This document shows positions 45,359-52,455 of a stretch of 64,000 nucleotides of DNA, one piece after another; within the stretch, counting starts at the first letter, position 1; every line of letters starts with the position of its first letter. The notes beneath the pieces are model-generated. The model worked only from the letters and a program-made list of their open reading frames with translations. It was not told the origin of the DNA and searched no databases. The translations under genes and the position numbers were made by a program. The DNA lies in contig CM073324.1 in the NCBI GenBank assembly GCA_037043015.1, positions 26,552,097 to 26,616,096 on the forward strand, in the 5' to 3' direction. This stretch comes from Bryum argenteum. Taxonomy: Eukaryota > Streptophyta > Bryopsida > Bryales > Bryaceae.

Positions 45359-45670
45359 ATTCGGAATGATCAAATGCGGCATCGGAAGTGGATCAGCGGT
45401 CAATACGAAGCTTCCGGGTGGAGTAGTGGCGGGTTATTGAGGGTCGCCAATTGGCAATGCGATAGGATCGTGGACAAGACAGGAACTTTTTCAGATCGTG
45501 TTCTTTGTTGTGTCAGGCTTCATTACTCTGATCTCTTAGTACGAGGTCAAGGTCATTGAACACGACGGTTTCTGCGTACTGCCTCCGACCTCTGTACTTT
45601 AGGAAGTATACTGTTCTCGTGAGGAGATCCTGTCTGGAGAGGTAACGGAGTGCAAACAAGTGAGCAGGCG

Positions 45671-48600
45671 ATGAAAGGGGATGTAAACGTGGCAGACGTT
45701 ATGGCCGAACTTGAGAAAGAACGACGCAAAAATTTTGAGCTCTTGGATCGTGTTTCATCTTTGGAAGCGAAGCTAGGTTGTGAAGAGAGCAACTCCGAGC
45801 ATATCTTGGAACATACGGACGTGGAGGTATGTGAACTGGTGAAATTCTTGGCTATATGCACATCGAGGAATAGAGATCTTAAAGTAAGACCTTATTTACT
45901 AATTGCCTGTGAAATTTGGTGCTAGATAACCGTCTCATCATCGATAACGATTACTGATTCTTGTAAGAGATTGTTGGAACGATGGGCATTGAGATCTCTT
46001 CGGAATTCGGTCTGGAATGGATCTGCTTTTTATGCATTTCAGTACTGTACCTCGATAAGGCCTAAGAACATTAACTCAGTATGAACAACTCACTGTTGAG
46101 GTATGAAGGAACAATGATGTGTATGTGCAGCAGGGTGATGCTGAACCTACTCTCAAACGTAGAAAAAGCTTAGGAGAAAACGTACTGGATGCTGGTGCTG
46201 TCTCAAGCGGTAGTCACTTACTTTCACCGAAAGCAGATGCAAATGCACGAACAGGGGTTGATTCTCTTGGCGGTATCAGAACTGGCCATGCATCATATGA
46301 GTCGATGGTCAACTGGATGTGTAGAGAAGATGTGAGCAGGGCTGACATAGAAAAGTTGAACGACGCGGGCAGTGGAGACGATGAGGACGACGACGATGAC
46401 GACGATGATGACAACAGTGAGCATGGGGACTCTAGTGAGCATGGGGACTCTGGTCGCACGCAAAGAGAGAAGGTGATACAGCAATTGGATCTATATTGAG
46501 TTGTTCTGATGGCATATTAGAGTGTGGATGCATCAGAACATCCCCGTCGTCTCTTTTGAAGGCTACTGAATCGAATTAGAATGTTGATGGTTTGCAGGAC
46601 AAAGCAGATGACTCAGGCAAAGAGTTTTCTTCTCGAGTGCTGGATTCTGATGACAGTGATGGTGAGGAAATTAATCCGGAAGATCAAAGACGACAAGGTG
46701 AAGGTCGGAAAACTCCGCTAGGGAAAAGGATATATTGGAGCAAAAGATATGGCTACGGGCCTTACCCGGTGGGTTATCGAGGGGCTGGCATCTTGTCTTC
46801 ATACAAGAAGACTCCCAAAATTGCCCTTTGCCCCATGGAGTTGAAGAGAATTTTGGAATCTGGAGTACTGGCCTTGAAAAATGCACAGTCGCATACAATG
46901 CGCAAGATCATTGTCTTCTCTTGTTTATGCATCCGCCACGGGTGTGAAGATTTCTATGAGCTCGACTTCAATCACTTTCAGATCCTGAATCGGGGGCAGC
47001 CTTACAAGTCAACGAAGGAGCCCGGGGTATGGTGATCGAGAACTGCTCTTTGTACTGATACGGTTTCGGTATCTATATCGTGTGTCTTTCCATCGAAAAA
47101 TCTCGTCAAAATTACTGGTTTCTGTGTCGGGTTTATCGATTTTAATGATGTTTTATTTTTTATTGCTTCTGGCGTGTAGGAACACGTATTGTACTCTCAC
47201 CCCAGCGGGAGGACGAAAGTTTTTATACCTAATCTACAAAACCCGATCCTGTGTCCTATTCGTATAATTGATGAAGAGAAGGAGATGCGACCAGCTGGTG
47301 CTAGCACACCTTCCTGCCTTTTTCTCTGTATAAAATATGGAGGACGGACTCGCAACCTACCCCAGAACCAGTATGTGCTTCTCGATTCCTTTCTGTAACC
47401 TAGAATTTTTCATCACAGAGTAGGCTGCAGTGTGACATTATTAGAAGACATCACTTTTGAGTTCCCAGGAAATTGCTTCAGAGCTGGTCAAACCACTTGA
47501 ATGCATGTTTTGTTCCTTTGTGGAGGATAAGGGAGTAAACAGAGGTTATAGAGCAGTGGGGCTTGGGTGTCCAGGTACGTGCGGCAGAGAATGGGGCGTA
47601 ACAAATTGAAGTCGTTTGGACCACTCATGTGTCAAATGGCGTTGTTGGTTCACGTCCGCACAGGGAGTTTTTTCTTTAAAGCACTTGGAATCACTCTTCT
47701 CTTCATGGCTGGGTTCTCTGATGACCAAGTGCGGAAGGAAACGAAGTACCGTAATCTGGCTTTGCTGCGGAAATATTACAGGTATTCTTATCTTTCCACC
47801 TTTTTACCAGCCCTTGTCATTACGGTGGGTCCTTGTTCAGGTGTTTCTGTCACGGTGCATTCTGTAGCCTACATGCAACGTGATGGGAGTGGTTTTACTT
47901 CCCACTTTTTGATACTAATGTTGGTTGAATTTAGTTCGGGAATCTAACCAAGTTGGGGTGAACTATGTTGCATCTGAAAATTCTAGGTCTGACGAGTCCG
48001 CCAAAGAGGAACAACTATTCCATCCGTTTCCTGCATTTTTTCCACCAGCCCTGCAGGTTCCTTCCACACCTCAGGTGCAATTCTTACCATCGAGAATTTT
48101 TTTTGATGTGCACACTCACGCTTCTTTCTGGTGTGTTTTCTCAAATTGAAGATTGTTATCGGTAGACATTTAGACGGGTGTATGATTGAAGAAACACTGT
48201 TGGTTAGATGACAGCAGCATATAATTGGCAGGAGGGGTTTATTGTGATGGTGTGGGTTGTTACAGGCAATGACAGGTGCAACACCATCTCAGGTCCTTCT
48301 GTCCACGACAGTTCCTCAAACAGCGCCGCTGGTCAAAAAACCTCCTCCTCTTCTTGTTCGCAAGGATCCCACGCCAGTGCCGCTGCTGGTGTCCGCGAAA
48401 CCCAAGCCATCAGCTGATCGTCCTTACAGGCGCATCCCTCCAATTCCATTTCACCTGATGAAACCTCCAAAGCGAGGGCGGAAACCAAAGAATGCCGAAA
48501 ATTCAAAACAAACACCGCTTGGGCCTCCCCCTTTTGGACCCTTTCCACGGCATCCTCCGATGGGGTTCCCCCCTATGCCACCTCCAGGTTGGCGACCAGG

Positions 48601-48964
48601 ACAAAGGTGGCCCCCTCCAGGTCCATTCCCATTCCCCTTTCCAATGTTTCCTCCTAACGCACAACCAGGGTCTTCCAGTCCCTCTCCCCCATTTTATCCG
48701 CCTCCATATGTTTTCCCCCCCTTCATGATGCCACCTCCTTCGTCAACCGCACAGCAAGATCTCAAACTACCCGAGGAAGAGGCTGCGCTCACCGGAGCAG
48801 AGCCTGGCAGTCATGTGGAGAGCTCGAAAGTTGTCGAAACTGACAAGGACGATCATGAACAGTGGAATACCGCAGGTGACGACGTTGGGGCCAGCAAAGA
48901 GGACTACATTCTCTTACAATCTGTAGAGGCTGAGTTCCCCGGTTCCATTTTTTCAACAGCTTAA
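45671..48964 (+). CDS. Coiled-coil, tyrosine-recombinase-like (Crypton-type), AT-hook, Pro-rich protein
   Basis: Seven exons in consistent phase: 45671-45883, 46131-46472, 46598-47026, 47180-47370, 47575-47840, 47935-48074, 48266-48964; about 759 aa. Order: a coiled coil (residues 1-71, AELEKERRKNFELLDRVSSL); a basic KRRK patch and an Asp run; a domain from about 235 to 450; and a C-terminal AT-hook-like PPKRGRKPKN with a long Pro-rich region (PPMPPPGWRPGQRWPPPG) and acidic end. The middle domain follows the Crypton/DUF3504 tyrosine-recombinase pattern: an Arg-I region IRHGCEDFYELDF, NPILCPIRI, RMGRNKLKSF and a C-terminal KYRNLALLRKYYR. The HxxR position appears to read FFFK, so the enzyme is probably inactive. 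Nuclear DNA binding is inferred. An upstream exon may exist. The exon 5 donor (TTCAG-GTGTTT) was chosen for phase. Confidence 0.72.
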
Positions 48965-49664: not shown

Positions 49665-51110
49665 TCATACTATGTCCACTTCCTCTTCCTCATCCTCATC
49701 CTCGCTCCCATCGTTAGAGTAATGTGCCAGGATTTCCAAGTTCCTCTCAAGTAAGCTCTCATATTCTTGAGCTGACCGCCTTAGAGCCTCCAGCCTTCCT
49801 GGCTCCTTCGCATGGTCCAGTTCGGCATACTCCTTCAGCAGTGCTTCTATTTCACCTTCTGGGTAGTGTATGTGTGTTTCCCGATCTTCCTTGTCAGAGT
49901 GTTCTGACAGAGCCGCCAACCCCTTTTGCAACATCTCCTCATATTCTCGAGCTGACTGTCTCACCACCTCGAGCTTTTCCAGGTCCTTCACATTTTCTAG
50001 TTCTGCGCATTCATTCACAAGCGAAACTATTTCAGCTTCTGGGTACTGTATGTGTGTTTGCCGACCTTTCTCGTCTGCTCCATTCTTGCCCTCTTCCACG
50101 GGAGCCCCTCCTCTCACCGGTCTGGATTCTGGCATGGGTGCCAACGCACTCTTGTTAGTTGTAGGTCTTCCTCTTCGACCACTTCCTTTCGGCCTTCCCA
50201 GTACACCCCCCTTGGCTCCTCTGCCTCGTTTCACTCCCCTTCCAGCTCCTCGTTCGGGAGCATCAGAGTTTGGAACTTCGCCGTAGTGATCGGGTAGCCA
50301 TTGTATGTCGTTCTGATCTATTGCCTTGAAATCCACCCATTCGTGACTCTCTTTTGGAGTACCAGAATAATATGCAAGGCAATGGTACATATGCTCCTTG
50401 TCGTAATCTGTAATCAACGCCTCGTAGAGCTTATTGTCTGCGGGCCAGTTGATCCGGATCCTCCGACCTACCCATGTTTCTCCACCGTTGTGGTCCCTCC
50501 ACGGCGCCGATCTTCTTCCATCACCCAATCCCCCTTTCTCAGAAGACGGTCTCGAGGTCCCAGCAACTCTCGGATGTATAGGATTGTCAGCAATACCTTT
50601 GCCCCGTGGCTTAGACAATACTCGCAATTGTGAAGCTGAATGTAAGTTCGATTGTGCAGGTTTTAGCATTTGGGCAGCTGGAGGAGGCAGAAAAGGAGTT
50701 ATTTTTTGCCTCTTGCTACTCTGAGGCATCGGGGAAGTGTCGCGATGGTGAAGGGGTATGCCTGTCTGTCTCCACGTCCGGATCCTTCGAAGGTTCTGGT
50801 CATTCAGGACCTTTCCCAGCATCTCTAGGTGTTGATCGTCTTCCACTCTCAGCAGCATCCTCGCTCTCGTAAGGAGCTCCTCCATGGACCAGGTAAGACC
50901 TTCCGACTGTGCACCAAACGCCTTTAGCAAGGCGAGGTACGCATCGAGCCCCAACTGACGGATCTCCTGATCAATGTCGGAGGAGTTCGCCGGTTTGCCG
51001 CTACCACTGCGCCGACCCTTCTGAACAGCCTGGGTAGGGGGGTGGTCATCGTCCATTGCCTCGCTATCCGACAGGTTGTGCTCCATCTTCCCCTGAACTT
51101 CCAATGACAT
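49665..51110 (-). CDS. EMSY-like protein 2, with both C-terminal modules
   Basis: A single 481-aa frame starting MSLEVQGKMEHNLSDSE. It has the same plan as genes 1 and 3: ENT domain (DIDQEIRQLGLDAYLALLKA), Tudor/Agenet-like domain (WVGRRIRINWPADNKLYEAL...HEWVDFK) and AT-hook-like motifs (VKRGRG, GRPKGSGRRGRP). It is the only copy with two coiled-coil modules in tandem, HIQYPEAEIVSLVNECAELE followed by HIHYPEGEIEALLKEYAELD. It ends soon after in a short acidic tail and lacks the long tail of the others. It is more diverged from genes 1 and 3 than they are from each other. A TTTTTGTAG acceptor 5' of the start suggests a leader intron; the GC-rich leader seen with genes 1 and 3 is not adjacent. 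Confidence 0.87.
   Translation of the reverse strand: MSLEVQGKMEHNLSDSEAMDDDHPPTQAVQKGRRSGSGKPANSSDIDQEIRQLGLDAYLALLKAFGAQSEGLTWSMEELLTRARMLLRVEDDQHLEMLGKVLNDQNLRRIRTWRQTGIPLHHRDTSPMPQSSKRQKITPFLPPPAAQMLKPAQSNLHSASQLRVLSKPRGKGIADNPIHPRVAGTSRPSSEKGGLGDGRRSAPWRDHNGGETWVGRRIRINWPADNKLYEALITDYDKEHMYHCLAYYSGTPKESHEWVDFKAIDQNDIQWLPDHYGEVPNSDAPERGAGRGVKRGRGAKGGVLGRPKGSGRRGRPTTNKSALAPMPESRPVRGGAPVEEGKNGADEKGRQTHIQYPEAEIVSLVNECAELENVKDLEKLEVVRQSAREYEEMLQKGLAALSEHSDKEDRETHIHYPEGEIEALLKEYAELDHAKEPGRLEALRRSAQEYESLLERNLEILAHYSNDGSEDEDEEEEVDIV

Positions 51111-52455
<1,345 letters not shown>

Follow-up and report, generated by a model that had tools for sequence, protein, structure and literature searches.

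A conserved gene of the moss Bryum argenteum probably carries a domesticated transposon recombinase. The gene lies at 45671-48964 on the plus strand of a 64,000-nucleotide stretch of genomic DNA (GenBank assembly GCA_037043015.1, contig CM073324.1, positions 26,552,097 to 26,616,096 of the forward strand; referred to as the window), and comprises seven exons, separated by GT-AG introns, with a single unbroken frame of 722 amino acids. It represents a family of land-plant host genes whose central domain of about 210 amino acids probably derives from a Crypton-type tyrosine recombinase and, with its HxxR motif lost, would serve as a DNA-binding platform that does not cut. The initial annotation had read such a domain by eye in a protein of 759 amino acids; the seven exons and the unbroken frame were borne out, while the length was not, our model giving 722.

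Sequence profiles did not identify a recombinase in the host gene or its homologs in searches of Pfam, NCBIfam, PHROGs or PDB sequences. The DUF3504 label given in the initial annotation was not supported by Pfam, as its DUF3504 profile (PF12012) has no match over the cut-off in the gene or the family, and a hidden Markov model search with this profile and that of phage integrases (PF00589) matched the family to neither. The ALOG family, which we take to be included in Pfam, was absent from the matches of the window protein at E<=10. In the moss genome the DUF3504 profile matched a single locus at E<=0.001 (C2:29426692, 28.7 bits), which is distinct from the host gene. The frame at this locus, used as a query in turn, found 48 matches with E<=1; 31 of these have E<=0.001, and 11 contigs are involved. 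In some cases two matches are fragments of the same copy, and several matches contain stops.

Loci L006-L029 (for example L022, C9:14386500-14392500): dispersed, partly decayed Crypton-like tyrosine recombinases

Judged by their sequences, these dispersed frames are Crypton-like tyrosine recombinases, and the group extends to the lycophyte Diphasiastrum complanatum through protein P0136. Recombinase frames and protein relatives match DUF3504 at 29.0, 25.8, 23.9 and 20.0 bits, all under the cut-off of 29.7, and PF00589 at 25.4, 24.5, 23.6 and 22.7 bits, all under the cut-off of 27.1; one Crypton-like recombinase matches a PHROG integrase at 4e-9. About 2.4 kb downstream of the L006 copy lies a frame that matches RNase H, and at L025 a frame appears copia-like by eye but matches nothing in Pfam at E<=0.01.

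It is unlikely, in our estimate, though no systematic search was made for a reverse transcriptase next to the moss copies, that the domain was domesticated from a tyrosine recombinase outside the Cryptons, such as that of a DIRS-type retroelement or a phage or bacterial, organellar or viral integrase. Such a source would suit the relatives that match PF00589 instead of PF12012, the two (P0125 and P0127) that match neither at E<=1, the lack of a match to either model in the host family, and the RNase H frame at L006; a DIRS-derived precedent among plants, ALOG, is described in the part of PMC3537659 consulted. It is opposed by the DUF3504 matches of the relatives at 29.0, 25.8 and 23.9 bits, two of them from the moss genome, and by the report of Kojima and Jurka (PMC3212892, sections consulted) that DUF3504 is not matched by the recombinases of DIRS and Ngaro elements. 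Virus origin was rejected, as none of 35 pattern matches in viral contigs is a relative.

The kinship of the host domain with the Crypton-like recombinases was assessed by profile alignment. Aligned by hhalign, the host-family profile and that of the moss recombinases scored 30.8 and were collinear from FLC through to the tyrosine, a length of 89 columns, and a larger recombinase set gave 30.1; reversed profiles scored 16.1 and 12.9, and the maxima of 300 column shuffles and 300 block shuffles were 21.5 and 23.9, respectively. We also scanned, without gaps, the 34 residues after FFFK along 15 recombinases (13 from the moss genome, some of them near-copies, and two database proteins; L011, the remaining one of 16 rows, is too short behind the box), at 61-132 places in each. 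The best place lay directly behind the NK[S/T]xR box in all 15, with a mean score of 25.6, compared with an average of -31.6 and a maximum of 5.6 for 2000 permuted segments, which peaked at that place in 0.2 of the 15 on average and in at most 12. With the four anchor residues masked the register was again found in 15 of 15, and the first 20 columns or the last 14 alone found it in 12 and 13, respectively. MAFFT and hhalign introduce a 3-residue gap after FFFK, which equates Lys427 with the NK lysine; this was set aside for the gapless register because the latter is best in 15 of 15, and the second arginine is absent under either reading.

The signal is weaker elsewhere. The N-terminal half, including box I (IRHGCEDFYELDF versus IRGxxELYNLxxxDF), scored 20.0, which was reached by 2 of 300 shuffles in each of two sets; as a profile test it was weak both in a first version (18.7, with 200 shuffles scoring up to 26.0) and in the second (20.0 against maxima of 27.1 and 23.6 in 300 each). 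Its best local match is box I with the moss recombinases, at a modest score, and in MAFFT alignment A3 this half is misaligned. When 16 recombinase frames were used singly, the top score among 108 decoys (21.7) was exceeded by one (25.4) and equalled by another; the kinship signal is therefore a profile signal.

Fold prediction pointed in the same direction. AlphaFold models were built first from 49 plant rows containing no recombinases and then from 65 rows including them, and both were poor. Recombinases of four kinds made up 8 of the 11 Foldseek matches of the plant-only model in the PDB, and recombinases 24 of the 27 matches of the mixed model, with no individual match significant (E>=0.09) and a mean predicted local distance difference test (pLDDT) score of about 50 for each model. 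A search of a viral structure library gave 19 matches, of which four carry an integrase or recombinase name, and E was below 0.5 in none. The structural comparison proposed in the initial annotation drew mostly tyrosine recombinases but gave no significant single match, on a model of low confidence. An unrelated plant-specific domain whose motifs are alike by chance would explain why no database profile matches and why the models are of low confidence; it is very improbable, as the profile score was reached by none of 600 shuffles and the register score by none of 2000 permutations, and the fold matches were mostly recombinases even without recombinase rows in the alignment. The assignment first made by eye thus stands up to profile alignment (30.8 against at most 23.9), to the 15 of 15 register and to the recombinase-dominated fold searches, and we conclude that the resemblance to the moss Crypton-like recombinases most likely reflects real kinship, the host gene being an ancient domesticated Crypton-type recombinase.

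To follow the active-site residues through the family, we used the 163 proteins, out of 635 candidates, that match the host protein at E<=0.1; all homolog figures rest on the best 120 of these matches. Three chimeric proteins (P0042, P0093 and P0119) and one homolog with too short a domain were dropped, so that 116 of the 117 non-chimeric homologs have the full domain and, with the window protein, give 117 rows. The motifs quoted in the initial annotation were all located, IRHGCEDFYEL in exon 3, NPILCPIRI in exon 4, and MGRNKLKSF, FFFK and RKYYR in exon 5. By the gapless register FFFK stands for (H/K)xxR and Tyr450 for the second histidine.

46802..47781 including introns, plus strand: recombinase-like domain, about residues 254-461, exons 3-5
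46934..46936, plus strand: Arg298, the box I arginine in IRHGCEDFYEL, in 115 of 117 rows
47216..47218, plus strand: Lys341, candidate beta-hairpin lysine, Lys in 113 and Arg in 4 of 117 rows
47669..47680, plus strand: Phe424-Phe-Phe-Lys427 at the (H/K)xxR position, in 117 of 117 rows
47747..47749, plus strand: Tyr450 at the position of the second catalytic His, Tyr in 114, His in 2 and Cys in 1 of 117 rows
47774..47776, plus strand: Tyr459 at the position of the nucleophilic tyrosine, in 117 of 117 rows; register 15 of 15

Lys341 was equated by eye with the lysine of the moss KN(H/W/Y)K motif. Of the hallmarks of tyrosine recombinases the box I arginine and the tyrosine are kept, and the HxxR box and the second His/Trp are not; the replacement of HxxR by FFFK noted earlier proved correct, GSFFFK occurring in all 120 homologs. 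The residues replaced are those that strand exchange requires, and it is because of this that we favour a DNA-binding role without cutting. That the protein is still an enzyme, either a recombinase or a topoisomerase-like nicking enzyme with a site rewired to Arg298, Lys341, Lys427 and Tyr459, seems to us rather improbable. These four positions, with Lys or Arg at 341, are invariant or nearly so in the 117 rows; (H/K)xxR, however, is FFFK in every row and the second histidine is a tyrosine in 114, and a tyrosine recombinase without the second arginine would be expected to have severely impaired chemistry. The enzymatic alternative can also draw on the animal DUF3504 genes, in which the tyrosine was lost (PMC3212892, sections consulted). 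The plant family is like these animal genes in the second arginine, which is lost in both, but not in the tyrosine, which it keeps in all rows.

The gene also behaves as a host gene in its distribution. One locus of it was found in the moss genome searched (258.8 Mb, 25 contigs), and with its land-plant homologs it is, like a Crypton-derived host gene, a conserved single gene without mobile copies. Host use had been argued from the exons and the open frame; a live Crypton, which would have a full catalytic set and several copies, is opposed by FFFK in place of HxxR and by the one locus.

The 112 homologs with an organism name among the 120 matches are all from land plants, namely a moss, liverworts, conifers, magnoliids and eudicots; of the groups suggested for an ortholog search, bryophytes are thereby covered with a moss and liverworts, and seed plants are added. 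Identity over the domain is 66-89% among the 112 and 66-90% among the 120. The closest named protein is from Ceratodon purpureus (P0001), 89% identical over the domain and 91% over 222 columns of the tree alignment. No monocot or Brassicaceae name is among the 112; as these come from the best 120 of the 163 matches, this is not evidence of loss and does not show any plant group to lack the gene, and no search was aimed by name at charophyte algae, ferns or hornworts. In a tree of 29 rows, with the mosses chosen as root, the window protein clusters with those of Ceratodon and P0002 (support 100); two Marchantia rows group together (99), with the liverwort Calypogeia beside them at an unresolved fork, followed by two rows without an organism name (81) and then by the seed plants (98). 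Of the two Cryptomeria rows, one joins two rows without an organism name (93), while the other falls close to the angiosperms at no resolved position; support is weak at 13 of the 26 inner branches. In outline the tree fits plant phylogeny and is compatible with vertical descent. The automatic names of the homologs are 'uncharacterized', 'hypothetical' or 'Homer protein', and P0035, a record from Rubus, bears the name 'Tyr recombinase domain-containing'. Many plant orthologs bear the Homer label, yet no Homer domain is among the families in the Pfam scans; the name is probably a propagated misnaming.

The gene model consists of the following exons and one further motif.

45671..45883, plus strand: exon 1, residues 1-71, with a predicted coiled coil at about residues 7-36 (helix seen in homolog P0002); the true start is possibly upstream
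46131..46472, plus strand: exon 2, residues 72-185, with a VNWM motif and the acidic stretch DDEDDDDDDDDD
46598..47026, plus strand: exon 3, residues 186-328; the recombinase-like domain begins here, with Arg I
47180..47370, plus strand: exon 4, from residue 329, codon 392 being split with exon 5; Lys341 and NPILCPIRI
47575..47781, plus strand: exon 5, codons 392 to 461, both split; MGRNKLKSF, FFFK, TKYR and Tyr459
47987..48074, plus strand: exon 6, up to residue 490
48266..48964, plus strand: exon 7, residues 491-722; Pro-rich tail, stop codon at 48962-48964
48470..48490, plus strand: AT-hook-like KRGRKPK, present in the window protein, P0001 and P0002 only

The splice pattern, judged by eye, matches P0002 (728 amino acids, 90% identical over the domain). 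This record is probably a spliced mRNA, because its longest contig has just 2,639 bases for 728 amino acids; its short, intronless contigs and the transcript-style name of another record (P0004) suggest that the family is expressed. The acceptor of exon 2 may equally well precede 46131 or 46134, and the donor of exon 3 may follow 47026 or 47029, each with one residue's difference, GT being found only after 47026. At 45620-45670 an in-frame GVQTSEQA stands ahead of the ATG and resembles VQTSEQ of the Ceratodon protein, for which reason a coding exon upstream of the modelled start may be missing; a little further upstream ILSGEV matches the same protein in a different frame, and the 5' end of the gene is unsettled.

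Outside the domain, the N-terminal coiled coil proposed earlier is supported by a helix at residues 60-91 of P0002 with block-mean pLDDT of 91-97. As for the proposed AT-hook, the KRGRKPK motif is present, but the Pfam scan of the window protein gave no match to one, and among 113 long-tailed homologs [KR]RGR occurs in the tail of just two, P0001 and P0002, the ones that cluster with the window protein in the tree. The C-terminal tail is rich in Pro and Tyr. A match to CDC45 (E 0.061) was rejected, as it covers the low-complexity acidic stretch, and the sole PDB profile match under 0.01, MAK16, spans profile positions 90-208 and was taken as the acidic region preceding the domain; other matches of the gene and its homologs in Pfam, NCBIfam, PHROGs and the PDB were mostly to low-complexity stretches. 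Tail to tail with the host gene lies a gene at 49665-51128 on the minus strand, whose single frame encodes 487 residues and includes an ENT domain scoring 66.8 bits against a cut-off of 28.5; it is presumably an EMSY-like chromatin reader.

Taken together, these features suggest a protein that would bind DNA in the nucleus without cleaving it, most likely as a chromatin or transcription factor. The C-clamp of the recombinase would still grip DNA, and strand exchange would no longer be possible because the second arginine and both histidine positions are replaced (FFFK, Tyr450). The N-terminal coiled coil would pair subunits, while in the nucleus factors of transcription or chromatin may be drawn in by the two tails, one acidic and one Pro/Tyr-rich. 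A nuclear protein, multimeric on DNA and recruiting partners, is what has been envisioned for animal Crypton genes in the consulted sections of PMC3212892. The domestication would be older than the split of bryophytes and vascular plants.

Crypton-derived genes have been described from animals and fungi (PMC3212892, in the sections consulted here and below). According to Kojima and Jurka all animal DUF3504 genes (KCTD1, KIAA1958, ZMYM2/3/4, QRICH1 and WOC) have lost the tyrosine and the second arginine; the plant family resembles them as a conserved host gene with a probable Crypton-type domain that has lost catalytic residues, fused to other regions and with a proposed role at DNA or chromatin, and differs from them in keeping the tyrosine and the box I arginine and in being undetected by Pfam DUF3504. 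With the ALOG/LSH1-G1 developmental regulators (PMC3537659, in part) it would share an origin from a tyrosine-recombinase element in land plants, but its domain is of the C-terminal catalytic type and likely of Crypton type. Gcr1 and Cbf2 (PMC3212892 and PMC3537659, in part) are host DNA-binding proteins from Cryptons, as the plant family would be, but are fungal, derived from CryptonF, and have a GCR1_C domain. The moss recombinases share with the host gene collinear boxes (a helix before box I, IRGxxEL, GxNTL, NK[S/T]xR, TGHR and Y); unlike it they exist in many, partly decayed copies and keep the catalytic set in most rows. In the sections of PMC3212892 consulted the recombinases from green plants comprise just a Chlamydomonas entry in the legend of a tree and a mitochondrial DUF3504 protein from green algae that the authors did not analyse, and Cryptons were not described in Arabidopsis thaliana according to the part consulted of a review (PMC7385966). 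The earlier statement that no characterised plant example is known agrees with the open-access full-text literature searched, where none turned up among the matches listed; no such land-plant gene is named in the consulted parts of PMC3212892. Among the matches listed there is likewise no paper on the host family, and the open-access full texts contain none of its Marchantia and Ceratodon identifiers, though it may be described elsewhere.

A bolder version of the proposal, which we regard as improbable, would have a Crypton-type recombinase domesticated very early in plants, ahead of the divergence of mosses from vascular plants, with a rewired site (Arg298, Lys341, Lys427 and Tyr459 kept, FFFK and Tyr450 fixed) that still bonds its tyrosine to DNA; if true, land plants would possess an enzyme, acting like a topoisomerase or as a DNA tether, that is unmatched in other organisms. 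Under our preferred reading of a DNA-binding platform that does not cut, a gene nearly unchanged since early land plants becomes testable as a pseudo-recombinase regulator. A tyrosine kept beside a destroyed HxxR would represent a natural experiment in the conversion of a recombinase into a chromatin protein, and since the moss genome holds relatives of the likely ancestor, the direction of this change can be tested.
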